A stretch of DNA of 64,000 nt. Source: Rosellinia necatrix (lineage: Eukaryota > Ascomycota > Sordariomycetes > Xylariales > Xylariaceae). This document shows positions 1,922 through 45,665 of this stretch, piece after piece. The number at the start of each line of letters is the position of its first letter. Position 1 is the first letter of the stretch. The notes beneath the pieces are model-generated. The model was not told the DNA's origin. It made no database searches and saw only the letters and a program-made list of their open reading frames with translations. The position numbers were made by a program, and so were the translations under genes. Where the stretch lies: positions 6,634,001-6,698,000 of the forward strand of contig JAGYVD010000001.1 of the NCBI GenBank assembly GCA_021209875.1, in the 5' to 3' direction.

Positions 1922-2140
1922 TTGTGAAGCCATCCCGACAGACGACTTCCTTAGGGAAGCCATCTTGTCGGACGGCTTCTTTAGGGAAGCCTTCCTTTGG
2001 GAAGCTTTCCTTGGTGAAGCCTTCTTTCTGGATGGCTTCTAGGAATAGTTATACATTAGTTAGACTAGGAGATAAAGAGTAAATTAATCTTTATCTCTCT
2101 CTAACTATCTGATGCCTACTATTTAATAGCTAGCGACCTC
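1922..2140 (+). repeat. Repeat family C, copy 1 (GAAGCC-rich, LTR-like)
   Basis: A G+C island built from degenerate ~25-30 bp units that each contain GAAGCC or its complement GGCTTC, followed by TTATACATTAGTTAGACT and a pyrimidine-rich end with ACTATCTGATGCCTAC. The same end recurs at 17,330-17,515 and at 18,960-19,045. An LTR identity is a guess: no primer-binding site or coding region could be tied to it. Confidence 0.65.
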
Positions 2141-7289: not shown

Positions 7290-8868
7290 ATTAAGAAGAT
7301 TGGTATAAGGGTGGAAAAAAAGATGCCTCTGTTAATTTCTGCTAAGTAAGGAATTCTAGTAAGTCTAGAATTAACCCCTGCAGGGGTAGCCGTGGGCCAC
7401 CTGTTGCCAGCCGTAGCTTGTGCAACTTATTTTTAGCTTATTTAATTTAACAATATATAAGTCAGTAGCTTAATTAATACGGTCCCTTTTAGGGACTTTA
7501 TTAAAATGCCGGCAAACAGAAAAACAGCTATTATTTTTAATAATATGTCACGTTGTTTTATAAAGCTGTCCTCTGCGCTTAACCTTTTTTTTTATTTTAA
7601 AACAAAAGCTGTTTTTTTTTAATAATCGTTTATTACTTTTTTTAAATAACATAGTTAATTTTTAATATATTATTAATTATATTTATATTTTTAGCTTTAT
7701 TATTTAATTAAATAATTAAATTTATTTTTTTTATTAACGTAATGTTTAAAAATCCGTTTAATTTTATATATTTTTTATTATTGCTATTTAAATACTTATA
7801 TTAATTAATTTTTATTAGCTTAAATATTAGTTTAGTTTGTTTAAAAAATTATTTTAGCTATATATACGTTTTAAATAAATTATTAATATGATTAAATAAA
7901 TTTTATAATGCTTTAAAAATTTAATTTATAAGCTAAATTTTTAATTTTTTTTTATTGTTTAAAATTTTACGCGTTATAAAAATACTTTTTAAAAGCTTAT
8001 TAAATAAATAATATTTGTTGTATAAATATAATAATATTTTTTATTAAAAATAAATTATAATATATAATATTTATTATTATAATATTTTTTGTTTATGCTG
8101 CAGCAAAATTTATTACTAGCTTAACGTTTTATTTAAAATAGTTTTTAAAGTTTTTATTTGCTTTATATTTAATTAGTTAAACTAATCGGTAATAAAATCC
8201 AAAAATTTTAATAATTAAAATTTAAATAATTGTTTATATAAAATAGATTATATAGCTTATAATTATATAATATTAAAATTTTATTATAATATTAAATATA
8301 AGTTAACTTAATTAAACTTCAAGTTTTTAAAATTATAATAATATATTATTAATTTAATAGTTTAGTTTTTTTTTTAATAATCTGTTATTTTATAAATAAT
8401 AAGTTGTAATTATTAATTGTTTTATATATAAAGCTTTTATATTTTTTTAAAAGTTAAACCTAAATTTTTAGGTTTAATTAAAAATAATATTTTTAGAAAT
8501 TTTTAATTGTTTATTAATAGTTGTTTTATAAAAACGTTAGCTTAGTTTTTAGTTATATATTTTTATTTTTAAAAATAAACAAAGTTTATTTAAATATATA
8601 ATATAATATAATTATTATATAATTATATATATTATAATATTTTTATTTATTAACAGCTATAAAATATTTTTAATATTTATTAAAAATAGTTTTAATATAA
8701 AGTTAATTATTATTATTTATATAAATAATATATTTTTAAATATATTAATTTAAAACTTTTATTAGTTTAGACCTGTTTATATAATTAAAATTATAATTTA
8801 AATAATATTTAATATATTTTTAACTAATTAAAACTTGTAGTAAATAAAAAATGTTTTAAAATTTTTAT
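7290..8868 (+). repeat. Repeat family A, copy 1 (left arm of inverted pair)
   Basis: A degenerate element beginning near a motif reading GGTATAAGGGTGG and containing the island with the palindrome CCCCTGCAGGGG and GCCACCTGTTGCCAGCC. The same sequence appears in reverse complement at about 17,965-18,830 and as a short direct copy at about 14,715-14,915. Compared with the inverted copy it carries about 700 extra bases, roughly 7790-8505, which could be a nested insertion here or a deletion there. It is mutated mostly by apparent C-to-T and G-to-A changes. Boundaries are approximate. Confidence 0.75.
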
Positions 8869-11800
8869 TATTTTTTAAACTTACGTAATATTTATTATTA
8901 TATATAGCTTTAAATATTTATTTAATTATATTATATAAAACGTATAATTATTTTATTTTTTAATATTAGTTATAAATTAAGCTATTTATAATAAAAAAAA
9001 ATGCTTAAGTTTAAAAAATATTATAACGTTTTTATTATTTTAGCAAAATTTTAAAATATTTAGCTTGTTTAATATTTTATTATATTATATATTAATTTAA
9101 TAACTTTTTAAATTTCTTTTTTATTTGTTATTTATTACTGCTTTTATTATATATTTTATTACGTTTTATATTAAGTTTAATATTACTAGTTTTTTTAATT
9201 TTTATAACTTGCTTGTTTTATTTACAGCGTTTTATATTAATTTAAGTTTATTTAATACGTCCGGTATATAATTTAGTTTTTTAATAAATAATATATTTAA
9301 TATCTGTACTAAAAAATATATTAAAAGTTAACTAGTTAAATGTTTATATAATTTATAGCAGCTATATTTAATAATGTTTAATTAATTATATTTTTAATTA
9401 TTAAATAATTTATAAATATAATTATATTGTTTTTATTAAATTAAACTACTATTTATAGTTTTTAACAGCTTAAATAAAACAAGCTATTTTTAATTTAAAT
9501 AGTTTATATTTAATTTTAGCCTGTAACAAACTATAATTTAAATATATAATTTGTTTTATTTATATTAATAAAATTAAGCTTTTAAACTTTTAATTATATT
9601 TTTATTTATATAAAATAATATAATTTTAAAACTACGTTTTTAGCTTTATTTATTTATAAAAAAGCAGTTTTTTAAATTATAATATTATAATATTATTTTA
9701 CAGCAGATAACGTTTTAAATAGCTTTAAATAAAACTATTTCTATTTTTATTAGTTTATAATATATATTATAAATATAATAAATATATTTTCTTTTATTTA
9801 AAATCTTTTTTTTTATATTTTTAGCTAAAAGTTAGTTTTTAATTCTATAGTAATTCTGTTAATTAAACGTAATATAAAATCAGATTATAAAAAATCCGCT
9901 TTTTTAAAATATTTTTAAAAGCTTGCAAAGTTTTTAAAAACTAATTATTAAAATACTTATATTTGCTCAGCAGTAGTTAATAATTTTAAAGTATTTATAT
10001 AAAATTTTAAAAGCTTTATAAATAAATAGCTAATAAAATTTCGTAAAAATATCGCGATATTTTTTATAAAATAATATAAAATTATATTAAAATATTTAAA
10101 ATAATTTTATAACTATTAAAATATATAATAATATTATTAATAAAATATTAATAATAATATATATATTTATATAATAGTTAGTTTATATATTTTTATATAT
10201 ATGCTAAAAATTATTATATTTTATTAATATTATATTAAATTGTTTTAAATTATAAAAACTAATTATTATAAATATATTTTTAAATTTAAAATATATTAAA
10301 AATTAATAAAAAATCTTGTTATATTAATAATTATAATATATTTTTATTTAATAAGCTTTTATTTATTTTTTTTATAAAATAACAAGTAATTATTTAAAAC
10401 TATTATTTTATTAAGTTGTTAAAAATTAACTATTATTTAGCTTTTATTAACTTTATATATTTTTGCTATATAATAAAAACAAAATAAATAAAAATATTAG
10501 GTTATTTATTTATTATAACTAATTTATTTTATATAATTTATTATAAATATTATTTAATATTTTTATATTATATTTATTAAAAAATACCGCTTTAAATTTA
10601 ATTTAATTTTTATTAATTATTAATAAAAATATTTTAAGTTGCTTTTTTAAAAATATTTATTTCTTTGCGATTTATTTAAATATTATAAGATTTAACTATT
10701 TTAATAAATCAAAAAGCTTTAAACGTTTTTCGGCGTATATATAAACATTTTTTTAATAATAGTTTTAAAAAATCGCCTAATTTTTAAAACTTTTAAGTTA
10801 ATTATTATATTAAATATAACGTTTATAAAAAAATATTTTTATTATTACATTTAAATATACTATTTTATAATTAATATTTTTTATATAATATTAAACATAT
10901 TAATTATTTGCACGTTTAACATAAAAATTACTATAAAATTTAACACGTAATTTATTTTATTTAAATACGCGATTATTTTTACGTTTAATATTATATTAGT
11001 TATTACTATAGTTAATAAAAAATTTAGCTTAAATTTTATATTAGTCGCTATAATTATATTTATTAAAAGTTATTTATTAATTTCAGCTAAAGCTGTTTTT
11101 ATTAATAATAAAATAATAGCTGCAACTATAAAATTATTATTATTAATTTTTAAAAGCTTATATATATTTTATTATTTTTGTTTTTTAAATTTAATCTAGC
11201 TTAATATTTTTATAAATTTTAACAGTTTTATTAAAATATTTACTATTAATACTATTTTAAAAGTTCTAGCATTAATTATATTATATATATTATTTTTATA
11301 TATAACTATCAAACAAAAGCTTTAATTGTTTAATAAAAATTTATATTTTATTATAAAATAAGCTTTTTTATTTTATAGTTTTATATTTTTTAACTAATAA
11401 TTTTTATATATATTTATAATTATAATTAAATATATTAAAAAAATTATAAATTTATTTATTTTTTAGCCTAGCAAATAAATATTTTTAATTTATAATTAAT
11501 TATAATTTTATATAAATATAAAATATTATTATTAAGTAATATTTTTAGTTCTAAATAGTTTTTATTACTTATTTTTTTATATGTTTAAATATTTTAAGTT
11601 TTTTAATTCTATTTATTTTTTAATATAAAAATAAACTTGGCTTTTTAAGTTCGACCGATTTATTTTTTAAAACAACAAATTTAATTTAATCAAAGGCTGT
11701 TTTATATATTAAAATATTTAAAAAAGATTTGCTAATAATAATTTTTTTAATATTTAGGTCAACATAAATTTATTAGTTTTATTTAACTAAAAATAGCCTA

Positions 11801-14714
11801 GCATTAATCCGCAGATATATATAACTTAATTAAAATATTTTATTATATTTGTTGTTAATATTTAACGCTTTAATTAAAAAATCTTGCTGTTAAAAATATT
11901 ATTAGCTGTTTTATATATTATATTAAAATATATTTTTAACGCGTTATAATTTAGCTTTTTTTTATTTAATAGTTTTATTTTTAGCTTTAGTTTATTTAAT
12001 AGTTTTATTTTTAGTTTTGACGTAATTTTATAAATAGTTAAAAAGTTAATTATATAAAAATAGTTTTTAAAAACAGTATTTATAAGTATGCTTTTTATAT
12101 ATAATTAAAAAAATGTTATTTTTTTTAATTTAATATAAAAGTTATACTTTTTATATATAATTTTAAAATAATTTTTAATTTATAAATTTAATAATATTAA
12201 TAATCAATAAAAGCTAAATTTAGTATTAAATAAAAAAAAGCGCGTTTTTTGCTGTGATTTTGCTTAATTTTTTATTTATTTATACTACTGTTTATAAAAT
12301 ATATATAAAATAAACGTTAATTGTTTTTTTTAATTTTAGCTATAGTTTTTATAATCTAAGTATTTATAATTTTAATTTTAATTATAACTATAGTTATATT
12401 TTTAGTTATATTTTTAATTATAACTTTTAGTTTTTAATTATAACTTTTTAGTTTTTAATTGTAACTTTTTATTTTTTAATCGATTTTTCTGTTTTTTTAA
12501 TAATTATTACAATTTTAGTTCTACTGTTTGCAGCTTTTTTTGCGGCTGCTATTTTAGTTGTTATAACTTTTATTTTAGTTTTAATACTATTTATAGCTGT
12601 GTTTACGGCTGTTTTAACTTTAATTTTTAAAATATTTATTATTTATTTAATGTTTTTTTTAATCGGGTTAATAATTATAGCTTTTTTAACACGTTGTTTT
12701 AACAGCTAATATTAAATTTACTAAAATTATTTTTAGTTTAATATTTAAATATATTTTTTAATTTTATATTTTAGCTTATATTAGCTGTTTTTTATTTTAT
12801 ATATATAATCAGCTAAAGTTTTTTAATTTAAAAGTTAGATATAATTTAAAATTATATTTTTTATTAGTTGTAAATATTTTTATACTTCTGTGCTAATTTT
12901 TATTATTTTTTATAGCGTTTTTATAGCTTTAATATATTATATTTAATATTAAATAAACTAAAAAAACGCGTTTTAATTTTCCGCGATATTTTTTAAAATA
13001 AGTTTTTTTTTTATAAACTTTTAAAACTTTTTACTAGCTTACGTTTTAAATTTTTTTTATAGTTTTTAAACAATATATTTAAGCCTGCTTTTTTTATATA
13101 TAACGGTCGCTTATATAAACTTTGCTGTTTTATTATAATAAAGCTAATCTATTTAATAAATAATTAAATAAATTAATTATTTATTAAACGTTTAATGCTT
13201 AAATATTTTTATTTTTAATAATAACTTAATATAATTAATAAATAAATAAACGTTTATATAAATTATATTTTTTTGTTGGCTATATATTTTTATTATTAAA
13301 GTTTTTTATTTTAAATTAAAAGTATTAATATTATTTTGTTTAATTTTATTTATATTTTTTTGTTTTAACTGTTATATTTAATATAAATTATTTTTATTAA
13401 TTTAATATAATATAACTACGTTTATTATTATTAAAACTATTTAAGCTAAAAAATTAAATAAATTATTATTATTATAGTTTTTATTACAACAGTAGTTATT
13501 ACTATAACGCTTATAAAACTTGTTTTAATATTTAATAAAAAGTTCTAAGTTATTATTTTTTTTAAAAAAGTTTTGATTTAATAAAACGTATAAAAAAATA
13601 TAATAGTTGCAACATTTAATTTATTTAAAACATTTACCGTTATATTTTATATATTAGCTAAAGCACCGGTTAATATAGCTGTTTTATTTTTGTTTTATCG
13701 GCAGGCTTTATTTTAAATAACCGATCTACGGCTTTATTAGTTTTAATATTATTTTTAGTTAGCTGCAGTTCTAAGTTTTATATTATTAAAATTTAATATT
13801 AATATTTTTAAAAGTTTAAAAATTTTTAAACCTACGTAATTAATTTTAAAACTAAATTAAAAAATATTTTTATAGTTTTTATATTTTTATATAAAATATT
13901 AACTAAAACATCGGCTTATTTTTAATGTTTTAAAAATAATCGACAGTTTTTAATTTAAGCCAGGTTGTTTTAACAGCAGTATATTTTTAAATAAAAATTA
14001 TATTAATTTAAAATATTCTGCTAAAGTTTTTTAAAGTTGTTTATATTTAAACTTAATATATATAATAAAATATAATAACATAATATTATTACAAGCTTAA
14101 AAAATTAAACATATTATTAAAAAATATTTAAATATATATATAATATGTTTAAATAGCTGTTTTATATATAAATATTATTAGCTATTATTTTTAATTTAGT
14201 AACTTATAATTTAAAAGCTATAAAAAATAAAACGGTATAAACTATATATATAAAAAATAAAATAATAAAACTATTTTTAAAAATTCCAGTTTTTAATTAT
14301 AATATATATATTTATAATTATTTAATAAATATATTTACTAACGCTTTTTTAATAATAAATAAAAATAAATAATTTGTTATATTTATAAATTTAAATAAAC
14401 TTTAATTATTAAACACGTTTAAATATATAACTTTAATAATAATAACTTTTAAAATATAAAAATAAACTGCTAAACATTTTTAGCAACTATTTATTTATAA
14501 GCTTTAATAAAATATATAATTTATATAAAAAAATAGTTATTAAAATAACGTTTTATTTATATTAATTATTTAATTATAACCGGATTAAAACGCGCGCGCT
14601 TAAATTTTTAGCTATAAACAAAATCTTTTAACTTTAAAAATTTAAAAATAATATTAATTTAGTTTAATAATAAAATCTATCGGTTATATAAATATACTAC
14701 TTTAAAAAAATTAA

Positions 14715-14915
14715 TATAAAAATAAAAAAAAAATACCTTTATTAATTTCTGCTAGATAAGAAATTCTAATAAATCTAGAATTAACCCCTGCAGGGGTGGC
14801 CGTGGGCCACCTGTTGCCAGCCATAGCCTGTGCAACTTATCTTTAGCTTATTTAATCTAATAATACATAAGTCAGTAGCTCAATTAATACGGTCCCCTTC
14901 GGGGACTCTATCAAA
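14715..14915 (+). repeat. Repeat family A, copy 3 (about 200 bp end fragment)
   Basis: Direct copy of the first ~200 bp of family A, including the CCCCTGCAGGGG palindrome, GGGCCACCTGTTGCCAGCC and the CGGTCCCCTTCGGGGAC hairpin near its right edge. Similarity to copy 1 ends abruptly just after this hairpin, so the fragment is either a truncated element or a solo terminal repeat. Confidence 0.75.
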
Positions 14916-17329
14916 AATATTTAATTTAAAATAATATTAATAACAATTATATTATTATTAATTTAGCTATTATAGCATTATATTATTAACGTTTTAAATT
15001 TAAATTATATTTTAAAATTAAAAACAGTTTAAAAAATTATAAAATAAAAAGTAAAAATAATTATAATATTATTAAAAATATTTTAATATTTCTGCTATTA
15101 AAAATATTAAAGCTTTATAAATTTTTAGTAGTATTAAATATAGTTTTAAAACTTTTTAATTAAATCAAGGTTTTATTAATATAAATAAAAATTAAATACT
15201 TAATAGTTTTAAAAATTTTTTAGTTAATATTTTTTTTAAACAAGTTATTTTTTTAAACAACGTAAACTAATTAAAAATATTGTTGCTGTTTTTATTAAAA
15301 CAGCTAATAATAACAATAAAAAAAACATTAAATTAATAAAAACATACAGCATAAAACTATTATTTTTAACGTAGTTATTTATAATTTAATTATAACTAGT
15401 CCTGCTATTAATTTTATAGCTATTTAAAAAGCTGTTAATATTACAGATATTTTAGCAGGTAATAATGCTGTAGTTATAAACAGTTAAAGCAAAAAAATTA
15501 ATATTAAGCGTTAAATTATATAAGCATATAAATAAAAATATTAATATAATTTTAATACAGCGCCGGTAATATTATTTATATTAACTAAAACGATTAATTT
15601 AATAGGCGACCGGGAAATCGCTAGTAATATAAAGTATAATATTAACTAGAATAATATTAATACTTATTATTAAGCGATATATACTACGTTTAAACAACTT
15701 TAAATTATATAGTTAACGTTTAAACAAGCTTAACTTTTATAAGTCTAACGATTAAAATTTTACAAAGCGCTAACTAATATTATAAATTTTATGTTATAGC
15801 AATATTAAACATAGTTTAATACTAAAAAAATTTATAAATATATTTTTAGCAACAGTATATATAAAAACTATTATAATATTATATTTTAACTAGTAAAAAC
15901 AAATAATAATTAATATTAGCTATTATTATTAATATAACAGCAGATATTTAATATAAAATTATAAAATAATTATATAATTATTTTTAAAACTTCAAAAATA
16001 ACGCAGCAGCGCTTATTTTTTGTTTTTATCGCAAAAAAGCTTTTTATAATAAAAATAATTTAATAATATATAATACAAGCTTTATAAATTTAATTATTTT
16101 ATTTAATCGGACTACTTTTATAAATAAAGTTAATAAAATTAAAAGCTTATTTAACAATAAACTTAAAACCTTTAAAACGTAATAATTAAAATGATTTAAT
16201 TATTAATAATTAAAATTTTATTATACGCGTTTAAATTAAAAATTAAAAAAGAAATATAAAATTATAATTATATAACATTAAATGTTTTTTAAATTTAAAA
16301 ATTATTAATTATAAAATTAATAAAACTATATAAATTAAATATAAAAGTTTTTAATAACTTTTATATTGCTAGCTATATAATTAATTATAATAACGTTTAC
16401 AATATTAATAATTTTTATAACTATAACAACGTTTGCAATACTAGCGATTTTTATAATTATATTAATTAAAAAGCTAGCAAAAAAAACGTTTTTAAATACT
16501 GTATTAGTTGTAATGCCTGTTTAATTAATAAAAGCGTTAGCAAAAAAATTTCTGCGGCTAAAAAATCTTAGTTATATAAAAAAACTATATATAAGCAAGT
16601 TATTATTAATATAAGCTTAAATTTAAAGAAATCGCTATTTAAAACAGTAAATAAACGCTGTTATATTTAGTAGATGTTATTCAGCGGAGCTTAATTTTTT
16701 AAAATATTAAAACATAAAATCTAACAAAGCCGGTTAGCTTTTAAACCGTTAATTATTTTTATAAACTATTTCTTTTTAATAATAAACCTTTTATTAATTG
16801 TTTTATATGTTAATATTTTTTAACGACATTTATTTCGTTGTTTTTTTTTTAAGTCATTTTTTTTTTATTTTTTTTTAACTTTTTTTTAACACTTTTGCTA
16901 TCGTGCATATTTTTATGCCGATATTTTACGACAACAATATCAATTTTTTATTTTTAATAACGCTATAAACATTTATTATTTTTATTTTTTATTTATATTA
17001 ATAAAATAAGCTTAAACTTGCAGACCGTAAACGCTATTATTAGTTATAAATTATAAATATATTAAACTTTTTTTATGTTTTTATTTTTATTTTTTATATT
17101 TTATTATTAATAAATTAAGCTTAAACTTGTAGACTAAAACCACTGTTATTATTTGCAAGTTTTTATTAACAACTATTATTAAGCTGCAAACATTTTTAAA
17201 AAGCGGCAGAGATTTTTTTTGCTTTAATTTTTTTTTTTTAGCTGTTATAAATCAACAAAGTTATTAATACTTTTATATTAGAGGCAATTATAAAGCTATT
17301 TTAACAGACAACTTTTTTAAAAAATCTAT

Positions 17330-17515
17330 TTTATTGGACGCCTTTTTTAAAAAAGCTTTTTTTTAAAAAGCTTTTTTTAATAAAGCCTTTTTTTCAGAAA
17401 GCTTCTAAGAATAACTATACATTAAATAGACTAAAAAATAAATCATAAATTAATCCTTATCTCTCTCCCACTATCTAATGCCTACTTATTTTAAAATAAA
17501 CTAGTTATTATTATA
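17330..17515 (+). repeat. Repeat family C, copy 2
   Basis: Degenerate direct copy of 1922-2140, recognisable by AAAGCTTCTAAGAATAA, ATACATTAAATAGACTA and TATCTCTCTCCCACTATCTA. Copies 1 and 2 are about 15.4 kb apart in the same orientation. Confidence 0.65.
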
Positions 17516-17697
17516 GCTATTTATATTTTATATTAATACCATTTATAAATACATTTTCAATAATTTTAAACTATATTTAATATTTTTATATTTTATGAAA
17601 AATATTTATATATAAAAGAAAAACTTTTTTATAAGTTTTTTAAATAATAAAAATAAATTTATTAAAGCTTGTTTAAATTTTTTAAAACGCTTAATAT

Positions 17698-17940
17698 GAT
17701 AGGCTATGCCTAAAGGTACACTTATCAGAGTAGCAAATAAAGTTTATTTTCTAGCTAAGTAGCAGAAGTTATAAACAATATATGCGTTGCTTGTAAGACG
17801 TAGTTTTATAAAGCTGGTCAGTTCTAGTTGTACTAGTCCAGGTTTAATGGTTAGTTTATAAGCTATTCGGCAATTGTTCGGGATAGGGGTATATAGCAGT
17901 TTGCCTGTATCGGCCCGTGCGCCGATACTTCCTTATAGGC
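17698..17940 (+). repeat. Repeat family B, copy 2 (best preserved)
   Basis: Direct copy of 485-705 with more G+C retained, for example TCGGCCCGTGCGCCGATAC at its right end. Its terminal ~70 bp is repeated again at 18,886-18,955 on the other side of the inverted family A copy. Confidence 0.75.
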
Positions 17941-17964
17941 ACTGCCCATGACAGTACTACTCTG

Positions 17965-18830
17965 TAACAAATTTTTAAAAAGGTTTTTGTTTATTATAAG
18001 TTTTAATTAGTTAAAAAATATATTAAATGTTATTTATATTATAACTTTAATTATATAAACAGATTTAAACTAATAAAAATCTTAAATTACTATGTTTATA
18101 AAACATGTTATTTATATAAATAATAATAATTAATTTTATATTAAAGCTATTTTTAATAAATATTAAAAATATTTTATAACAGCTAGCAAGAAAAAATATT
18201 ATAATATATATAATTATATAATAACTATATTATATTATATATTTAATAAACCTTATTTATTTTTAAAATAAAAATATATAATTAAAAACTAAACTAACGT
18301 TTTTATAAAACAATGATTAATAAATAATAATAATAAAAAATATAAAATTAAACAGATTTTTAAACACCGCGTTAATAAAAAAAAGATTTAATTATTAAAT
18401 TAAATAATAAAGCTTAAAATATAAATATAATTAATAATATATTCAAAACTAACTATATTATTTAAAAAAAAAAAATAAACTATTAAAAAAAAACAGCTTT
18501 TGATTTAAAATAAAAAAAAATTTAAATATAAAAAACAGCTTTATAAAACAATATAACATATTATTAAAAACAGTAGCTGTTTTTCTGTCCGCTGGCATTT
18601 TAATAAAGTTTTTAAAAAAGCCTGTATTAATTAAGCTACTAGCTTATATATTATTAGATTAAATAAGCTAAAAATAAGTTGCACAAGCTACGGCTGGCAA
18701 CAGGTGGCCTACAGCCACCCCTGCAGGGGATAAATCTACTCTTATTAGATTTCCCTACTTAGCAGAAGAATTAATAGAGCATCTTTCTTTCTACCCTTAT
18801 ACTAATCTTCTCACCTTTATTTAATCTATA
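17965..18830 (-). repeat. Repeat family A, copy 2 (inverted, internally shorter)
   Basis: Reverse-complement copy of the 7290-8868 element. The outer ~250 bp (18,570-18,830) and the inner portion match in order. About 700 bp in the middle of copy 1 has no counterpart. It retains more G+C than copy 1 in the terminal island. Nearly identical ~70 bp pieces of repeat family B lie on each side of it (about 17,870-17,935 and 18,886-18,955). Confidence 0.7.
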
Positions 18831-18885
18831 TTATATTTTACAGACTTAATACCTTCCTACCCCTATTTATTATTACTCATAAGCT

Positions 18886-18955
18886 ATTTATCGATTATTT
18901 AAAATAAAAATATATAATAGTTTGCTTATATTGGCCCGTGCGCTAATACTTTTTT
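18886..18955 (+). repeat. Repeat family B, right-end fragment
   Basis: About 70 bp matching the right end of the 17,698-17,940 copy (ATAAGCTATT through TTGGCCCGTGCGCTAATAC). It leads directly into a family C fragment. Confidence 0.65.
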
Positions 18956-18959
18956 CTAT

Positions 18960-19045
18960 AACAATTAGTTAAACTAAGAGACAGATAGTAAATTAATTTT
19001 CATCTCTTTGCAACTATCTAATACCTTCTAATTTAAAAACTAGTT
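18960..19045 (+). repeat. Repeat family C, right-end fragment
   Basis: Shares AGTTAAACTAAGAGACAGA, TTTTCATCTCTTTGCAACT and ATCTAATACCTTC with the right end of the other family C copies. It abuts the family B fragment, suggesting a rearranged or nested composite. Confidence 0.55.
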
Positions 19046-19440
19046 TATTAATATAACTAATATATAAAAAACTAAATAAAAGCTTAAAAATAAAATTATA
19101 TATAACAATAAAACCAGCGATTATAATATTTTTAATAACGTTAATAAACCAGACGTTAATTTAATTAAAAGAGAAAATAAAATATAAAACTATTGGAATT
19201 TTGGCAATTAGTTGCAGACTATAACTATTATTAGGCATGTTTAACTTTTATATAAAAACATATAGCTATTATATAAAAACAGAATATATATTATTTTTAT
19301 TATTTAATTAGGTTATATATTAATAAAATTCTTATATTTATATAAAAAAATCCTGATGCATATAACAGTTTATTTATATAAAATTATTAAATATAATAAA
19401 CATTATATAACAAGAAGTTATATTCTGTTTCACGCGTAAA

Positions 19441-20299
19441 CAGTACATGCATCGCACATACAAAGCCCATTCAACAAAAACTATATTATCGTCAGAAACA
19501 TCAAATAACGCTATATTACTGTTAAAATTAATTAAATAACAAGTCATCCATTGTATTAGCTGTATTTAGGGTGAAATGGCCCGCGAGGGGGTGGCCTGTA
19601 GCCTCCCCTGTTAGCTTATAGGGGCAGGGCTCAATATCATTGATTCATCGGCCTACTATCTAGGTGGAAGGCCTTCAGTCCTTAAGTACACAAATATGCC
19701 TCTAGAGCTAAACCATAGGGTAGCTGGTACCTCGCCATGTGCTTTATCTACCTGACGCATTTCCGTTCCGGACAAAACCGTGGCATCTATACTGCTCGGT
19801 GTTTCACTTGTAGGGATTTGTGTAAAGAAAGCAGTCTCAGATGTTTTGTTCTCTGAGGAGGAAAACTATCACCAAGTGCTATGATGACTCTGATATCAGG
19901 TATGATCATCTTCTGCCAACAAAATCCATCTAGTAGTAAGGTCTACTATTGGTGCTAAGGTATCAAGTCTGTAAAAGTGTAATATAGATTAGAGGGGTGG
20001 TTCATCTCATTAAGCGAATAGTAACTTTAAAGGAGGAGTGCTGGGTCAATCCAAACACGAACTATCCAGAGATCTAAGCTGTTGTCTAAATATATTCTCT
20101 CTCATCCCAAACACCTTATTATCTCTGCCTTGTGCACAGAATGAGGCATAAACGGACATATCCTGTCTGATTGAACTCATCCGAGAAACTCTCCTGTTAA
20201 GGACAAGAATAGGTACAAAGTGAGGTGAGGGTCTGGTGCCACTAATATCTTATTCCTAACCATGGCGATAACTCTCGGATGAATCTTCAACATAGTCCC
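19441..20299. other. Transition region without a gene
   Basis: Composition returns to about half G+C. Apart from direct repeat D and a segment at 19,588-19,612 that resembles the GGTGGCCT...CCCCTG island of repeat family A, I see no supported gene here. Confidence 0.5.
19618..19711 (+). repeat. Direct repeat D, left copy
   Basis: About 95 bp that recurs at 63,768-63,863 in the same orientation, sharing CAATATCATTGATTC, AGGCCTTCAGTCCTTA and ATGCCTCTAGAGCTA with few mismatches. It lies just inside the edge of the AT-rich block. It could be a solo LTR, a terminal fragment of a transposon or a dispersed genomic repeat. Confidence 0.8.
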
Positions 20300-35005: not shown

Positions 35006-35743
35006 TCAATACCCGAGATGAAATCCCATTTTGGTCGCCAACAGTTCCAGCAGCTTCCCCGGGTCTAGGGCGGCGTCCGGGTATTGTCCGGTGAGGAGGA
35101 TCCCGGTTCTCCCGACTGGAGTCGATGAATCCGCTGGCACCGAGGCCGCCTGACCGGCGTCGTACGCCCGGAGCGCCGCAGACACCCGCGCCGGCGAGTC
35201 GACGTGGCGGAAGAGCTCCTGCAGCACCATGGCATCCTCGAATGCTGTCGCCGCCCCCCCTTCCCTGCTCGACGGGTACCAGGTTCCGGCAGTCCTCAGA
35301 ACCCAAACCCCCGCCAGCTCGCGCGGGAGGGAGACCCGGTGCACCACCGTCCGTTGACCTCTCCGAGCCCTGCGTTTTACGCGGGGCGTTCATAATAGTT
35401 CTTCCTCACACCATAGTCTAATTAGACGAATTCTTTATATATAATTTAATTTAATTTAATTTACCAATGGCGCTGCGGGTAGAGTTCAGGGGCACCGCTC
35501 CCGCCCTCTGGAGCAGCTCTTGTTCGCCGCCGCCGGACGGGAATATATCTGCTTCCAGGGCCCGGATGCCATTCGGGCTCAGCGCGTATGGCGGCGCCGC
35601 GGACACCCGGGAATGTGGCCGAGGCCTCGCGGAGCTGCACGCCGACGTGCGGCAGCTGGCTCAGGGGCGTAGGCGACCGTCGTCCCGCCGAGGCCGCCGC
35701 CGATCACGGCGATGCGGAGTGGTGGTTGCGGGGTGGCTGGCAT
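35006..35743 (-). pseudogene. FAD-dependent monooxygenase remnant
   Basis: On the minus strand an ATG at 35,743 opens a typical flavoprotein monooxygenase N-terminus: PLRIAVIGGGLGGTTVAYA is the Rossmann GxGxxG motif. The frame is then lost, and ALSPNGIRALEADIFPSG, the usual next block of salicylate-hydroxylase-like enzymes, continues in another frame. An AT-rich stretch (about 35,395-35,465) replaces the middle of the protein. A C-terminal piece (35,347-35,006) then resumes with AFEDAMVLQELFRHV and a second short Arg/Ala-rich helix resembling AALRAYDA. Roughly half of a normal ~400-residue enzyme is missing, and the GD motif is not recognisable. It lies next to the RiPP-like cluster, whose relatives use FAD monooxygenases. 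Confidence 0.75.
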
Positions 35744-36252
35744 TGGGGGGGAGGAGGAGGAGGGGGGATGGGTGGGAAGTGTGATGGCACGGTGGAGGTG
35801 GCGCGTTTTGCCCTACGCGAGCTCATCTCTAGCATGCAGCGACGGTTGAGATCTGAATGCCTGTAGCGCATGCGGTGCAACCAACGCTGGCGAGACATCT
35901 TGTGCGCCGTTACGCCGTTACGCCGGTATGCCCTTGTTTATGTACTTACCTTTCTATGCCGTCTTTTTTTTTTTTTTAAGAATAGACGAGTTTCTCTAAC
36001 GAGGCAATCTTCATTTGTAAGAATAGAATTAATATTAGTTCTGTTACCTTTCGTAACATCAGATTTAATATTTTAGCTATGTTCTGCAAGTGGTCAGCAT
36101 CGCAGTTGTAATTCTATGTATGATGGGTAGATAATTCATTGTCTTTCCAAGTAAGATGGCTGCCCTAAAAGGTGAAGTATGCTCTAGCAATACAACTCTG
36201 CTTCGGCACACCACTGCCCTAGACCCATAACCATGATGACTGACCAAGGCGC
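35744..36252. other. Intergenic region
   Basis: No supported gene. The sequence becomes AT-rich toward 36,060 with a T14 run near 35,966. G-rich simple sequence (GGAGG) at 35,747-35,780 marks the old monooxygenase promoter side. Confidence 0.5.
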
Positions 36253-37090
36253 TCATGCTCGAGGCCGACCCTCTGACTCTAGTAGCGGATTCGTCATACT
36301 TGCGATTTCTTCGTGAGACACGACTCGATCGGCATGGGATTCCATCAAAGCGTCCCAATCCACGCATCTGTGGGGTACACGATGCGTGTTCAGCATCGGG
36401 TGCGGCAGGCGTCCATCCCATTTAAACACAGCAAGGGCACTCGTGTCCGCGCGGCATATAGCCGCGTTCCGAAGCCAGTCCAAGCAATGATCGATGTGGA
36501 CCATCTGGTGTCTGCGCCCCTTTGCCGTGAGGTTCGGGAAGTAGTGCTCGCGCCAGCTCCATTGCCTCAGCATCTTGACGCAGTGCAGCTCGTGGAAGAC
36601 GCCGAGCCACGCGAGATACCCGCCGTTGGGCAGCGCCACGGAGGACTGCCCGTGGGCCGCCAGCTCGTCGGCCGTCACCCGGACGCTCATGTTGTTCAGC
36701 AGTAGGTGCCAGGCTTGGTCGCTCTCCGGCATGGGCTCCCCGGAGTAGGGGCTGTTTACGAAATTGTCGTAGAGGCGAAACTCGTACTGGACGGCGAGGC
36801 CAGCAAAGGCTGTGATGATGGAATGATGGAATAAGCCACAGTGTGTTTGCCATTGGAGGGTAGGACTAACCTTGCGTGTCCGGGGCGGAATAGAATCCAT
36901 TATTGTAGCGGATGATCGCGAACGAAGCAACCCCATACAATATCATCAACACTAGTTGGGCTACCGAGGCATAAAGCCATAAACGAGGGTGGTTCTTTTT
37001 TCGACGCACGTCGGAGGCAGCATATTCTTGATTCTCATTTTGGAGTAGAAGCTCCTTTTCGGTAATGTCTTCTCTCGTTTCGCTGTCCAT
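36253..37090 (-). CDS. UstYa-family (DUF3328) oxidase, copy 1
   Basis: Two exons (37090-36871 and 36809-36253; intron 61 nt) encode 258 residues. The N-terminus is a charged cytosolic segment followed by a single membrane helix at about 38-60, then the lumenal domain. The two family-defining motifs are present: H146-x-x-H149-C150 in FHELHCVKML, and H178-x-x-H181-C182 in HIDHCLDWLR. UstYa-type proteins catalyse oxidative macrocyclisation of peptides in ustiloxin, phomopsin and asperipin biosynthesis, and oxidations in cyclochlorotine. The gene starts 490 bp from, and is divergent to, a repeat-containing precursor peptide gene. Substrate assignment is inference. Confidence 0.9.
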
Positions 37091-37580
37091 AGGAGCTGGG
37101 GATAAGTCAAAAGGTAATATGGAGTTCGATGGACGTGAGAAAAGGAGGGTGGGATGGGATGGGGTCTAAAGGCGTAGGGGGGTACACACCACAACCGTAC
37201 ATGTGACATTCCCGTCTGTGATAGCATATAAGCGGCTGCAGATGTCCAGGGCCTCGGCTTGATGGCGATTTACTTTTGCCGGGTTGGTATCAGTGGCGTC
37301 GTAGTCAAGTGCCGTACCTCTGTTCCATGACACTAGAGGATCTGGTTCCCCCACTAGGATACCTCTTCAGCCGGCCGCTTTATATCATTGCGATTCTGAA
37401 AAGCGGTGTAGTAACAGGATGTTACCTGAAGAGAAGCTCGGTGAATGGAGAAAATATAGCCAAGTTTTGCATATAAAGGTCGCGATTCCGGGCTCAACAT
37501 GTCCCCTATTCATATATCCCAGCATCTCGAACCCTAGCTCGAACCGGAATCCCCATACAATTATCAAACATCATAGCAAG
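37091..37580. promoter_or_regulatory. Bidirectional promoter, UstYa copy 1 / precursor peptide
   Basis: The 490 bp between the two divergent start codons probably serves both genes. A TATAAAGG element lies at 37,472-37,479, about 109 bp upstream of the precursor ATG. No operator-like palindrome was evident by eye. Confidence 0.5.
37472..37479 (+). promoter_or_regulatory. TATA box of the precursor peptide gene
   Basis: Canonical TATAAAGG about 109 bp upstream of the precursor start codon at 37,581; the only close TATAAA match in this divergent promoter on the plus strand. Confidence 0.45.
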
Positions 37581-37816
37581 ATGAGAAGCAGTCTCGTTTT
37601 CATCCTGGTCCACTCGATGGCCATCATCACTACCGCCCTCCCTCACGGTGAGCACAAAAACTAGATTAACCTAGCCTCTGGAGGTACTGACGGGAGATAG
37701 GGGATGTGGACGAGATGATCGTTTATCCCGAGCCCGACCTCGATGATGCGGTGGTCTACCCAGAGCCTGATCCAGACTCAGGAGTCATTTATCCAGACCT
37801 ATACACGGATGACTAA
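37581..37816 (+). CDS. Candidate RiPP precursor peptide with three 11-residue repeats
   Basis: Two exons (37581-37647 and 37701-37816) with a 53-nt GTGAGC...AG intron encode 60 residues. Residues 1-20 are a signal peptide (hydrophobic FILV...AIITTAL core). The rest is acidic and consists of three consecutive 11-residue units (24-34, 35-45, 46-56) and a YTDD tail. Conserved unit cores are IVYPEP, VVYPEP and VIYPDL, so Tyr31, Tyr42 and Tyr53 are exactly 11 apart. Dikaritin precursors have this design: secretion signal plus repeated Tyr- or Phe-containing cores next to UstYa genes. Unlike those, no KR or RR Kex2 site separates the units; there is no basic residue after His22. Too short to be seen as a continuous frame. 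Function is inferred from architecture and context. Confidence 0.7.
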
Positions 37817-38356
37817 AGGAACCTATTTGTTTGGGAATGAGGGTCGGTCTGGTGGAAATCCTGATGGATATCATTATTGTACCGGGGGTATTACCTCCTT
37901 AATCACATGTGGGCGGTAGCTGGCCGAATTGGCTTTCCATGGAGGGGGTGTCTTGGATATATTGCTTTTCATGATTGCGATGTTGCGTTACCCTGGGTGG
38001 GCGAAGTCTGGTTCGAGGCTCCTACAAAATGAATAGTTCTAGTTCGCGAAGATCTTTCTCCGCATTCTGACAACCGATGGGAAAACTTCGACCACAGTAG
38101 TGAGTCATATACAAAACGATACGCAGTGAGCCTGTCGTGTAGCCAATACACCATGCAGACCCCAAGTAGGGCTTGATGTGGGAATACATAGTTCGCATAC
38201 ACACCTCGACCATGGTGGAATCCCATGTGTTGACATAGTGTATCACTGCTTCCATACATAGGTATAAGAATGATACTGTATCGTGTATAATATCACATTA
38301 AAATAGGAAAAGGTCGCATTGAATTGTGGCAAGGCAAGGCAACGTGTGGTTTCGTC
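37817..38356. other. Intergenic region
   Basis: Between the precursor peptide gene and the first O-methyltransferase gene, both on the plus strand. Two overlapping minus-strand open frames of 77 and 96 codons (37,969-38,259) have no recognisable features and no splice support. No gene is called. Confidence 0.5.
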
Positions 38357-39552
38357 ATGGCGGGACATTCCATTATGCAGCTCGCGACCACGATTCTGGA
38401 GAAGACAACTACAATTGATAGATTCCTAAAAGCGAACGGGCTGCCGGGCCCTTCCTTACTCCCAGATGCACCACCCACGCTACAGCTATCTCCCGAGGTA
38501 GACGCATGCCTCCAACAGGCCCTCGCCGCCATCGACGAGCTCAACGTGCTGCTTCTCGGGCCGCTGGGGTGGTTGAAGCAGCAAGTTGACCACACTGTAA
38601 GTACCTACCTACCTACCTACCTACTTCCCTTATGCATACATGTATGTATGTATAATGTCGGGTGGCTACAGCGCCGTTCCAACTAACGCGACTCGCATGC
38701 GGGCGCAGTACGGCCTGGTCAGCCTGCACGCGCTCTACAAGTACAAGATACCCAGCCGGCTCCCCATTGGTGAGGAGGCCTCGATCTGCGACCTCGCGGC
38801 GCGATGCTGCTGCTGCTGGGACGAGGGTGGGGATGGAAATGGGGACGCTGCCGCCGCCGCCGCCGCCAGCGCGGCCGCGCCACTGGGCCGCATCCTACAG
38901 CACGCGGTCACGAACCACCTGCTGGCCCAGCCGCGCCCGGGTTACATCGCGCACACCGCCTGCTCCGCGCTGCTCGCCCGCGACCCGGCGCTCATGGACT
39001 GGGTCGGCAGCGCCTGCGAGGACCTGTGGCCCGCGGCGCCCCGGGTCGTCCCGGCGCTATCGAAGTGGCCTACCTCCAACACCACCACCACCACCACCAC
39101 CACCACTACTACCACTACCACCATCGCCGCTACTACTACCGCTACTACTGCAGATGATGCTGATGATGCCAAGCCAAGACGCCATGTGGAGACGGCGGCA
39201 GCGGCCTTCAACCTCGCCGAGGCCACCGAGACGCCGTTCTTCGACGCCCTCGCCCTCGACCCCGGGCGCGCGAGGCGCTTCGCCAGCGCCATGGCCGCCA
39301 TGGCGCGGGGCGTGCCGGGATTCGAGCCCGCGGCCGCCCTCGACGCCTACGACTGGGCCGCCCTGGCAGACGCCGACGCCGCCGTCGTCGACGTGGGCGG
39401 CTCCGAGGGCGCCTTCGCCATCGCGCTAAAGCGGCGTCACCCCGCGCTGCGCGTGACCGTCCAGGACCTGCCTGGGGTGATCGAAGGTGCGAGGGCGCGA
39501 TTCGGTGGTGGTGGTGGTGGTGGTAGTGGTAGTGGTGGCGGTGGCAAGGACG

Positions 39553-39612
<60 letters not shown>

Positions 39613-40133
39613 GTGCTGCTTCTGCTGCCGCCGCCGCTGCTGCAGAGATCGTCTGGCAAGTACATGATTTCTTCGACGTGCAGCCGGCGCGGAACGTGGA
39701 CGTCTTCTTTCTCCGCCTCGTCCTGCACGACTGGCCCGACGCGCTCTGCTCGAAAATCCTACGCCAGCTGATCCCCGCCCTGCGCCCCGGCGCGCGAATC
39801 ATCGTCAACGATCTCGTGGTCCCGCCGCCCGGGAGCCTGCCGATCTACCAGGAGCGTCGCATCAGGTATGTGCCGCCCCCAATCCCAACCCCCCCTATCT
39901 GTCGCGGTGTGGTTCCGCTGGCCTTATGCAGGCTCGCTCGCTCACCTAGCCTCTTTAGATGTCAGGACTTGGCGATGCTTGCGCTCTTCAACAGCAAGGA
40001 GCGATCTCGAGAGGAGTGGGCTGAGCTCGTCACGGCAACGGACCCTAGGTTTCGTATCAAATCAATCGTGCAAACGCCTAAATCTCCCCTTGGGCTATTG
40101 GAAATAGTCTGGACTCCTGAGAATGCTGAATAA
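38357..40133 (+). CDS. Class-II SAM-dependent O-methyltransferase 1, with microsatellite insertions
   Basis: Three exons (38357-38596, 38709-39865, 39959-40133) encode 523 residues, about 100 longer than relatives. The ATG at 38,357 is the first in frame. Helical dimerisation segments are followed by the SAM-binding motif AVVDVGGSEGAFA, VQDLPGV, and the catalytic-histidine block LRLVLHDWPDALC, then GARIIVNDLVVPP and LAMLALFNSKERSREEW, so it is a plant-type/fungal O-methyltransferase (Methyltransf_2). The extra length comes from simple repeats: poly-Thr from ACC/ACT tracts (39,076-39,151 and 39,552-39,612), poly-Gly from GGT (39,505-39,545) and Ala runs. The second Thr run follows the DLP motif, inside the SAM fold. 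Likely tailoring enzyme for the neighbouring peptide, by inference. Confidence 0.85.
39076..39151 (+). repeat. (ACC)n/(ACT)n coding microsatellite
   Basis: Trinucleotide array in frame with the methyltransferase, encoding a run of about 14 threonines and then Thr/Ala-rich sequence. Confidence 0.9.
39505..39612 (+). repeat. (GGT)n then (ACT)n coding microsatellites
   Basis: A GGT-rich array encoding Gly/Ser (39,505-39,545) followed closely by about 18-20 ACT units encoding threonine (39,552-39,612). Both keep the methyltransferase frame open. Confidence 0.9.
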
Positions 40134-40253
40134 AGTATTACTATAGATTGGTTCGGTTGTTCGTTATATTCAACTAACTTCTCACTCTATCGTGTGCGTT
40201 CACTGCTTAATTCTGAACATGCTATTATTCAAATTCATCCCGTTTCCTTTTTT

Positions 40254-41000
40254 CTAGTTCCATTTATGAGACTCCCAAGTAGCTGTCCACTGTTTCAGCT
40301 CAGACCAGTCGATGCACTTATGCTCCTCCCCAAATCCTCGTACCCCGCCCAGGGAGTCGTCTTTTACCTCAATCGTCAAGTCCGGATTGCACATGAGGCT
40401 ATGCCGCAGGAGGTCAATGCAGTGACGAATATGAGGGGGGCGGAGCATCATAGGCACGCTACTTTCATTGAGTCGTTCGCCGGCCATGGCCACATCATGT
40501 ATCAACCAGTACCCTTGGCGGATGCCATTCTAGATGGTGTGAGTGGTCTGTAAGCCTACTGTCACAACGCGGAACATAACCAAACGGTTGAGGAGCAGGC
40601 GCAGCTTACCAAACAGTGTAGGTAGTGATAGACAGAGAACGTCGAGCGTTGCGGGGCGATTGTTGGGTGTGTGAAGAAACCATGTTGCTGCGGGAACAAC
40701 CCCTCCCAAAGATCATCGGCCCCAGATGACCCTTCAGCAAAAGACCGATTATAGACGAAAACATGAGAGGATGCAGGAACTGTCATCAAGTATTTAGCTC
40801 TGTGACCTAGAAGATAATGTGAACTGCTCACGAGATAGAATGTTGCCTTTTATGGTCACTGTGTAGCGCCCAAGAATAAATGCTATAATAGTTGAGAAGC
40901 TCGTGAATAGCAAAAGCAGTTTTTGGTAAGATGGTTGAACATGTTGAGGTGGGGAGCTTTGTCCTATCAGCTTGTAACCTCCTATGGCTCGTGACAACAT
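40254..41000 (-). CDS. UstYa-family (DUF3328) oxidase, copy 2
   Basis: Three exons (41000-40832, 40779-40610, 40529-40254) with introns of 52 and 80 nt give 204 residues. A membrane helix lies at about 27-46, followed by the lumenal domain. The paired motifs are H108-x-x-H111-C112 (VYHYLHCL, continuing across the intron to IRQGYW) and H146-x-x-H149-C150 (PHIRHCIDLLR). It is shorter and clearly diverged from copy 1. Clusters such as ustiloxin contain two UstY proteins that cooperate in cyclisation, which fits this pair. It is convergent with O-methyltransferase 1 (120 bp gap). The first exon-exon junction is the least certain; an alternative acceptor would leave a 22-25 nt intron, which is too short. 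Confidence 0.85.
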
Positions 41001-41918
41001 CGATCTTCTTTGAGGATACTTGCATATATTTGATGTGAAATCTCCAGTTCAGATTAAGAAGGCGGTAAGAAGTGATCAGAAATCTTTTAAGGGGAATTCG
41101 GTAGGTGTATCTTCAGATCGAGGGCCGGGAAGACAAGAGCGTATGATGAAGGTTTGCTATCATCAGAAAGTTAACAGAGTAGCATCCGATCGAAGTTCGT
41201 AGCCGCAAATAGGGGGATCGATGGGTGAATTCCCGGTTCGGGGCGTCCGGTGAGACTACGCCAATTACACATTGACCATAGCTTCCCAAATCTCTGGCCG
41301 TTAGGGATACCCAAACAAGCCACCCCATGTAGCTAAGTAACTTTTAAGCGGTGAGACCAACACAAGGCCCAAGTAATCCTAGATATGGTCGTGTCATTCA
41401 ATTCCGGCCGAATCCATTTCAGGATATCTTCTCCCATCCCCGCATATGCGAAGACACATGCAGTCACTAGGACCAAACTGTCCAGGAACACACTATCATA
41501 CTATGGCCCCCAATTTTGTAGGCATAAAGTTCAAAAAGCGGCGGCCCTACTTTCTGTAGCAGTAGGCGGCATACCAGCAGATGCTACGCTGACTGGGCTG
41601 TGCAAAAGCAGGGTTACTGGCCGTCATATTCTGGGCACTACCAGACCAGTGTCGCGTACATTGTAATAAAAGTGGTAACGAACTGAAGTCAGGTAGTATC
41701 ATTTAATGCGTTTACGACACACATATATTAAACAGTTTGATACAGCGAAGGAGAACAATCCTGGATGGCGTGAAAGATTAGCTGTTGACCATACATTATT
41801 ATCACCCGACATGTTCAAGAGTGATTCAGCTTCGAATCCTATATGATCATACGGTAAGACTGCTAAACTGCCACACTGCCCTCGCGACGGCTACATGGAG
41901 TGAGCGGCGATGTTCAGC
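41001..41918. other. Intergenic region
   Basis: Upstream of UstYa copy 2 and downstream of O-methyltransferase 2. Several open frames of 60-93 codons lack any feature. No gene is called. Confidence 0.5.
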
Positions 41919-43175
41919 TTATTTGGGAATACACTGAATAACAGAATCTTGCCGACGAGCATGATATATGTCAATGCGCAATACTTTCAGCCCCGCCGCA
42001 TCAAGTAATCTATGCCACTGCGCCGTTGTCCGTTCGCAAGAACCAAAAGAAGCCATTAAAGTTAGATCAAGCGTGGCCGCCTCCCAAGTAACCCCACTGT
42101 CTGGCAGCACCATCTCGTCAATCAGTATCTGCGAGTCTGGCCCAAGTGCGGCTATAAGCTGTTGTAATATCGCGACACACTTGTCGTCGGGCCAATCGTG
42201 CAGGATGTTCCTGAGATAGTAGAAGCGAGCGCCCTTTATGGGCTGGGGCTCGAAGAAATCATGCGGCGTCGGCTTGACCCCGTCGAGTTTGAACGGGATC
42301 TGTTCGAAGGTCTGCGGGAGGTCTTGCAGAATGAGCTTGCCCCGGAGTCTCGGAAAGGCCGCGAGGAGCGCGAGACATTGATGGCCGAAGCCACCACCGA
42401 CATCGACAAAAACGCTAGGACCGGCGAAGTCCCCGAGTTCCTCCTCAAAGGGGAATACGGAGAACCAGGGTACGCCAACAACACCATGGACCGTCATGAC
42501 CTGCTGGAGCGGCGCAAAGCGCTCCGGTCTAGCGGGCAACCATGCGAAGGCCGGCAAATCCGTCGCGAATGCCCTTTGGAACGCCGAGTTAGTAGCGCTG
42601 CTCACATCTTGATACTTGATCTCGGCCAGGAAATCCGGGAAGGCTTGGAGAACGGGGCCAACGTTGTCAAAAAAATGACGGACGCCGCCCTCATAGCCGG
42701 GCTGTGCCAGGGTCTTGGTGATGGCGTTGGCAGCGAAGCTATCCTGGGACACCTCCCGGATCATGCCTACGGAGGCGAGATAGCGCAGAATGCGACCTAC
42801 GGGTCAATGCTCAGCAGATGCCCATGAACGTGCGACTTCCGTCGAACTGACTCATCACGAGGGGAGCTGCATTCGTTTGCGAAGAGAGCGCAGCGGCGCC
42901 CAACGGCTGCGCACTCGCCGCCAGCGTCTTGAAGATCCCGAGATCGACCCCGATACGGGCGGCGGTGATCTCGAGTTGCTGTCGTCATCGGTCAGTCATG
43001 CCGAGAGGGGGGCTCGTGGCGCGCAACAATTTACCAGGCCTGAGAAACGGGAGAGCGTGTCGTGAGGGGTCTCTAGCTGGAGCTGGAGACCGTAGATGGC
43101 ATCGAGCACTTTGTGGCGGTCTGCGCTATCGGCCTGCGTTGCTAGGCTTCGTAACTGCTCCAGTGCCGCGTCCAT
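41919..43175 (-). CDS. Class-II SAM-dependent O-methyltransferase 2
   Basis: Three exons (43175-43035, 42978-42852, 42796-41919) with introns of 56 and 55 nt encode 381 residues, the usual family length. The helical N-terminus (QLEITAARIGVDLGIFKTL, then RILRYLASVGMI across the second intron) is typical of fungal O-methyltransferases. The SAM-binding loop DVGGGFGHQ is at 221-229, LILQDLPQTFEQI follows, and the catalytic His289 lies in LRNILHDWPDDKC. The last block ASFGSCERTTAQWHRLLDAAGLKV completes the fold. It is more intact and less repeat-laden than O-methyltransferase 1 and only distantly similar. Probably a tailoring enzyme of the same cluster. The second donor (A|GTCAGT) is non-consensus at +3 but restores the frame and the family pattern. 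Confidence 0.88.
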
Positions 43176-44323: not shown

Positions 44324-45665
44324 ATGTCATCAGCCGATGAACCTCTACGACCGCTACCACCAGATGTAGATCGTGGCCCTCGCCTTATAGCCATGTTTTG
44401 GTCTTACACGGCTATTGTTCTTGTGATATTGAGCTTACGATTTTATGCTCGGTTCAAGATTCGCGCATTTGGCTGGGATGATTGGCTGATGCTTATTACT
44501 GTGGTATGAACACGCCTTTGAGAAGGATCAAGGAGAGATGAAGCTCTGAGCTCACCATACTAACCAAACCCTTAGATTCTTTTTGTCACCACGACGATTT
44601 TTGTTACGTATTTAGCAAGCGTCGGAGGGGCCCGACACGTGTTCTACTTATCGCCGGAACAAGCCATATTAGCACTCAAATGGACCTGGATTTCACAGCC
44701 AACGGCCATATTCCTCTTCGGTACTGGAAAAGCGTCCGTGGCAAGTTTGACGCTGCGTTTTGTAGGCCCCAACGCATTCTGGGTCAAGTTCACGTTGTAC
44801 TTTGTCATCGTGACGATCTTTATCGTTAGTTCCCTCGGAGTCGTCTTCACGTTCGTACAATGCAACCCCCCGCGAGCGTTGTGGATGCCGGGACTCAAAG
44901 CTTCATGTTGGGACCCCCAAGTTCAAACAGATTTCAATTACTTTCTTGCGTGTACGGTATTCATCCGCGATTGCCACAGCAGAGCTCCTAGCTGACAGAC
45001 CCCAGCTTGGAATATCGCTGCCGACGTCGTGCTAGCCCTTTTGCCAGCATCTTTGATCAGTAGATTGAAACTTCATCGGCAGAAGAAGATTGCTCTATCC
45101 GTACTTCTGAGTTTGGGTTTGATGTAAGTCACATATTTTGAACCTCAGATTTCCTGCTAACAAATAATATTAGTGCTGCAATTTTTAGCGGGATCAAAAT
45201 TCGTTTCCTCAGCGATCTCAAAGCTCGAGAAGACTTCACGTGTAAGTGTGGTACCGGTTGTTTGTTATTTTGCATAAGCTAAACATATCGTGATAAGGGT
45301 CCGCATTTGAGATACAAGCTTGGACTGGGGCGGAGGCGTTCGTCATGATGCTTTGTGGTAACATCCCGCCACTGCTTCCTCTTTGGGACCGCTTCATTTC
45401 AAAGAAGCTTGACTCGACATACAGGAGGAGGCTACTACCAGAAAAGCATGGAGGTGCTTTCTCCCCAAAGACAACAGAAGTAAGCCACAATGACGCAGAC
45501 TATCCACCTCTGGGAGATACGAGTGATAGCTGGAACCCCAGTGCTTCACAGTCGCAAATTAAAATGAGCGGCGATGATACTAATACACCTTTCAATTTAC
45601 GAAATACGGATATCTCGGTGAGGACTGAAATTGACGTGAGAAATGGTAGGCAAGAATTTGTGTAG
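44324..45665 (+). CDS. Fungal rhodopsin-like integral membrane protein
   Basis: Five exons (44324-44503, 44576-44951, 45006-45123, 45174-45241, 45298-45665) encode 369 residues. Introns are 50-72 nt and the first contains ACTAACC. The protein has the layout of the fungal rhodopsin-domain family of seven-helix proteins: first helix WSYTAIVLVILSLRFYARFK, then the family motif FGWDDWLMLI, a CNPP segment in FVQCNPPRALWMP, and NIAADVVLALLPASLI. The C-terminal ~90 residues are hydrophilic and Ser/Thr-rich, as in relatives. Function of the family is mostly unknown; some members are PTH11-like receptors. Its position beyond the methyltransferase does not prove cluster membership. Confidence 0.87.

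Follow-up and report, generated by a model that had tools for sequence, protein, structure and literature searches.

The locus described here is a compact gene group within a window of 64,000 nucleotides, by which we mean the whole stretch of DNA analysed (Table 1). A small gene for a precursor-like peptide is accompanied by two genes of the UstYa family and two O-methyltransferase-like genes. UstYa-1 and the peptide gene are divergent, with 490 bp between them, and UstYa-2 is found on the other side of the peptide gene, 2.4 kb away. The flanking frames were recognized by a Pfam scan of 30 window ORFs picked from the longer ones, and no PKS or NRPS domain was found in this selection. Positions 1-20000 of the window have a GC content of 9-31% per kb, unlike the rest of the window; their RIP-like indices are 1.20-1.28 for TpA/ApT and 0.47-0.82 for CpA+TpG over ApC+GpT (five 4-kb bins).

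Table 1. Features of the locus, in window positions except for the window itself, which is placed on its contig.
Feature	Position	Strand	Details and evidence
Window	C1:6634001-6698000		Assembly of 49.1 Mb, 12 contigs
Left flank, AMSH-like JAB-domain frame	ends 33671		Pfam scan of window ORFs
Flavoenzyme-like pieces	35006..35774	-	Short, in different frames; nature and cluster membership doubtful
UstYa-1	36253..37090	-	258 aa; two exons, 36871-37090 and 36253-36809; PF11807, homologues
TATA-like CATATAAAGG	37470..37479	+	111 bp upstream of the peptide ATG; consensus only
Precursor-like gene	37581..37816	+	60 aa; ATG at 37581; two exons, 37581-37647 and 37701-37816; 53-bp GT-AG intron 37648-37700; stop codon ends at 37816; homologues and alignment
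OMT-1, O-methyltransferase-like	38357..40133	+	523 aa, three exons; PF00891
UstYa-2	40254..41000	-	204 aa; three exons, 40832-41000, 40610-40779 and 40254-40529; PF11807 on last exon, homologues
OMT-2, O-methyltransferase-like	41919..43175	-	381 aa, three exons; PF00891
Right flank, fungal rhodopsin-domain frame	44576-44995		Pfam scan of window ORFs

The small gene is real and conserved. Its product, MRSSLVFILVHSMAIITTALPHG-DVDEMIVYPEPDLDDAVVYPEPDPDSGVIYPDLYTDD, starts with a signal-like part (residues 1-23, called from hydropathy and by eye) and continues with the tail DVDEMIVYPEPDLDDAVVYPEPDPDSGVIYPDLYTDD, an acidic stretch of 37 aa containing three (I/V)(I/V)YP units, the last of which has a second tyrosine. 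The two exons have a single matching place in their own genome. A protein search with the peptide retrieved nine relatives (E 2.9e-29 to 4.2e-11), which argues against a chance reading frame. The relatives include proteins from R. necatrix (97% identity to the window peptide), Xylaria, Parahypoxylon, Rhypophila, Echria, Podospora and Lasiosphaeria. By taxonomy look-up, R. necatrix and Parahypoxylon belong to Xylariales, and Echria and Podospora to Sordariales; Xylaria, Rhypophila and Lasiosphaeria presumably fall within the same two orders. A secreted precursor with Tyr units beside two UstYa oxidases had been proposed by a sequence-only reading of this DNA, and this part of it is supported.

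All ten peptide sequences align with three units in identical order. Counted over the seven relatives of full length (two others, whose N-termini are odd, were excluded), the tail is identical to that of the window at 28-36 of 37 positions, versus 3-22 of 22-23 positions in the signal part. Within the tail, two of the 22 unit positions and 10 of the 15 linker positions vary among the ten sequences (Fisher p 7e-4, with the unit borders set after the alignment was viewed). Units 1 and 2 of the window peptide differ in seven of eight codons, five of these differences being synonymous, which fits amino acids kept by selection. As repeats, the units are weak, with two near-identical and one diverged, and a strict repeat scan of the window's own cluster did not flag the peptide. 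Despite this weak repetition, the repeats are convincing because they are conserved between species, the predicted secreted precursor carrying three imperfect core units in all ten sequences. The sequence-only reading expected a new product; six stretches of the peptide's letters are absent from the open-access literature searched, and no paper describing this locus was found among the same open-access sources.

Both oxidases belong to the UstYa family, as judged from a profile score above the cut-off together with two HxxHC motifs. UstYa-1 matches PF11807 with an E-value of 1.6e-39 (136.5 bits) and the last exon of UstYa-2 with 6.8e-15 (56 bits), the cut-off being 25 bits. The motifs are HELHC and HIDHC in UstYa-1, HYLHC and HIRHC in UstYa-2, and both genes are open across their introns. 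Alignments covering 37 of the 46 listed UstYa-1 homologues and 20 of the 75 listed for UstYa-2 show at least 90% conservation of the motif histidines and cysteines. UstYa-2 is 96% identical to an R. necatrix protein over 83% of its length, which, together with the peptide identity, places the window in R. necatrix or a near relative of it. The part of UstYa-1 encoded by exon 2 (185 aa) was modelled with AlphaFold, using an alignment that included 40 of the 46 listed homologues. The model is confident (mean pLDDT 89.9), and structure comparison gave no useful match. The family is reported to use a dicopper site and to make the ether between Tyr-O and C-beta in asperipin-2a (PMC12186524).

OMT-1 and OMT-2 both match PF00891 and are open across their introns, with a non-canonical second donor site (GTCAGT) in OMT-2. 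They are related to each other (29% identity over 214 columns). OMT-1 contains in-frame ACC/GGT/ACT arrays at 39072-39140 and 39504-39612, which encode poly-Thr and poly-Gly runs and are possibly length-polymorphic. The two oxidases and two methyltransferases called from sequence alone stand; a dead FAD monooxygenase, placed by the same reading at 35006-35774, is not confirmed. One of the pieces there has a GGGLGG flavoenzyme-like motif, read by eye. The pieces lie in different frames and match no Pfam family even with the limit at E 10. When the whole genome was searched with FAD_binding_3 (19 of 98 candidates scored), no match in the window was listed. Their origin from a flavin monooxygenase is unproven. 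A flavin-like gene in pieces and long trinucleotide arrays in OMT-1 are what might suggest that an earlier cluster has decayed and that the present genes are its remains. However, the peptide gene, UstYa-1, UstYa-2, OMT-1 and OMT-2 are all open, and the R. necatrix peptide is 97% identical, making decay very unlikely.

Synteny in other ascomycetes had been suggested as a check, and the peptide and its UstYa neighbours apparently share contigs there. Here, location on the same contig is inferred from identical base totals of contigs, compared by eye across three protein listings. The peptide shares a contig with UstYa-1 in five of the nine relatives (contigs of 4140511, 32040, 3990345, 6970587 and 6727 bases), with UstYa-2 in four (114681, 312476, 3990345 and 6970587 bases), and with either of them in seven, representing several genera and two orders. 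One contig with the peptide and UstYa-1 is just 6,727 bases long, and co-occurrence on it is hard to ascribe to chance. Locus tags are consecutive in Parahypoxylon (AAE478_008742/008743). In R. necatrix, a single number separates the tag of UstYa-2 (_9200060) from that of the peptide (_9200080), matching the position of OMT-1 between UstYa-2 and the peptide in the window. Two relatives depart from this pattern: for Xylaria FL0043 no UstYa is listed on the peptide's contig, and for Lasiosphaeria the UstYa pair is listed on a contig of different length. R. necatrix is not represented among the 46 listed UstYa-1 homologues. Both oxidases are listed on eight contigs and the peptide on two of these; on the other six the short gene may be missing, as in the refuting case named by the sequence-only reading, or may just be unannotated.

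This linkage bears on the possibility that the product is a small secreted peptide, a signal or an effector, which stays unmodified and accompanies UstYa genes acting on another substrate. UstYa-type enzymes are also present in clusters for polyketides and nonribosomal peptides (PMC12048977), and a tail conserved very strongly over its whole length and the absence of dibasic processing would suit such a peptide. Yet UstYa is on the peptide's inferred contig in seven of nine relatives from two orders, and the 30 longer ORFs scanned in the window hold no PKS or NRPS domain. We therefore regard an unmodified peptide as improbable.

The mature peptide is devoid of lysine and arginine in all ten sequences, so that no dibasic (Kex2) site separates the units. 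Tyrosinase (PF00264) has 22 matches in the genome, none of them within the window, and the single S41 peptidase match (PF03572) is on contig C3, again outside the window. The claim of the sequence-only reading that the gene has exactly the precursor design of dikaritins is not supported by these results. They also weigh against the idea of a classical dikaritin pathway, in which Kex2 would cut the precursor into cores, cluster peptidases would trim them and UstYa would cyclise them. Two UstYa and two methyltransferase genes next to a secreted Tyr-repeat peptide are consistent with that scheme, but it already fails on the Kex2 sites; together with the three fixed units and the lack of S41 or tyrosinase matches in the window, this leaves it highly improbable.

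The other UstYa loci of the genome served as a control. A PF11807 profile search yielded 28 exon-level matches, which we assigned to the window and to 13 further loci. Repeats were scanned in 20 kb around ten of the 13 and in about 3.2 kb at each of the remaining three. Seven of the ten have a repeat precursor-like frame at a distance of 0.6-1.6 kb from the closest UstYa match, suggesting that UstYa with a nearby repeat precursor is a common arrangement in this genome; no repeat precursor was found in the three scans of about 3.2 kb. The scan is lenient and unspecific, returning antisense frames and low-complexity ORFs as well, and the seven control precursors were chosen by eye among the matches listed (at most four shown per locus). 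In 33 kb of flanking window sequence the same scan gave four matches, which were discarded by eye as low-complexity, out-of-frame, antisense or Gln-rich.

Dibasic sites are present in four of the seven control precursors (C1, C8, C2:404k and C3) and missing in three (C5, C10 and C11). Thus, their absence is not unique to the window locus. Among all eight UstYa-linked precursors, the window peptide alone is without any Lys or Arg in its mature part. Most repeats of the C5 and C11 precursors contain one Arg residue; at C11:2487 kb and C5:1554 kb it is located between repeats (K-A-R-D/E or K-[AV]-R-D), replacing dibasic sites. The frame at C10:264038-264454 resembles the window peptide in its acidic linkers, the lack of dibasic sites and a UstYa match 1.3 kb away, but differs in having five near-perfect 20-aa repeats (FNYxNNIDNAV x5), another core and single Lys residues. 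At C10:264 kb the region concerned covers 1575-2086 of the extracted locus. A later open stretch there, which may be a second exon, contains YTDD and has AADAASILGE as its end, similar to the end AADPRDILG in the C2:404k frame and to the C5 repeats AADPAEVLG. At C7:5600209-5607219, several UstYa matches have a PF00891 match nearby, and no repeat precursor was found.

A RiPP-type pathway at the locus is well supported. Judging from sequence features, it is probably a crosslinked-peptide pathway without the usual protease cutting sites. We assign a probability of roughly 0.68 to the reading in which the 60-aa precursor is secreted and modified by the neighbouring UstYa pair, its tyrosines being crosslinked independently of Kex2. 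Against it weigh the two relatives with no UstYa listed on the peptide's contig, the R. necatrix UstYa-1 missing among the listed homologues, the six contigs listing both oxidases and no peptide, the lack of an S41 match in the window, the unflagged repeats and the occurrence of UstYa-type enzymes in other kinds of cluster. The signal peptide would send the precursor into the secretory pathway, and UstYa-1 and UstYa-2 would oxidise the Tyr of the three (I/V)(I/V)YP units. By analogy with known UstYa products, each Tyr would most likely be linked to a nearby beta-branched residue. Such residues stand before Tyr in the units, which is the order of epichloecyclins and the reverse of that in ustiloxin (PMC9233826). 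OMT-1 and OMT-2 may add methyl groups. Release would depend on some protease that is not Kex2, unless the tail is left whole. The pathway would yield either several short acidic peptides with crosslinks or a single multi-ring peptide some 37 residues long, with putative producers in Xylariales and Sordariales. Unmodified masses calculated from the window sequence are 831.401 for IVYPEPD, 817.386 for VVYPEPD, 1212.555 for VIYPDLYTDD and 4184.835 for the entire tail; each ring would lower them by 2.016 and each methyl group raise them by 14.016.

The conserved acidic linker positions appear compatible with excised cores and with a whole tail alike. That the 37-residue chain remains uncut and single-copy, with each of its three units crosslinked into one multi-ring secreted peptide that never depends on Kex2, is a tentative version that we consider rather unlikely. 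For such a peptide, near-identity between Xylariales and Sordariales would point to a biological function that is conserved, rather than to a rapidly changing toxin. A precursor nearly fixed between orders would be a clean substrate for testing recognition by the UstYa pair. Large surveys of RiPP precursors in fungi searched for Kex2-processed repeat proteins (PMC7329392). Since the window locus and three of the seven other UstYa-linked precursors are without dibasic sites, a considerable share of UstYa substrates may escape surveys of this kind. antiSMASH is described as keying on ustYa/ustYb (PMC7099791), and a cluster predictor of this kind might flag the locus.

Kex2-processed repeat proteins (KEPs) resemble the locus in that a secreted repeat protein is found near DUF3328 genes (PMC7329392). 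However, Kex2 sites are the defining feature of KEPs (PMC10512285); the locus peptide lacks them, and its family should therefore fall outside this class. Epichloecyclins (GigA) share with the locus units an Ile before Tyr in the core; in a comparison by description only, GigA is thought to be Kex2-processed, unlike the locus peptide (PMC9233826). In ustiloxin and phomopsin, by contrast with the Ile/Val before Tyr of the locus units, an N-terminal Tyr is linked to a later Ile (PMC9233826). Dikaritins are described as arising from Kex2-processed repeat proteins through cyclisation by UstYa homologues (PMC10512285). Their original definition named a tyrosinase, a methyltransferase and a peptidase or transporter, members of which may be missing in later-described clusters, and some known dikaritin-type clusters have no peptidase (PMC12048977). 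Compared without protein alignment, the dikaritins ustiloxin, phomopsin and asperipin-2a share with the locus UstYa/DUF3328 genes beside a secreted precursor with repeated Tyr units, and the locus has two PF00891 methyltransferase-like genes, whereas it departs from them in its missing Kex2 sites, the absence of S41 and tyrosinase matches in the window, and its three fixed units with acidic linkers. Because Kex2 sites and tyrosinase or S41 matches are lacking in the window, we do not file the locus as a dikaritin, although it most likely works like one.
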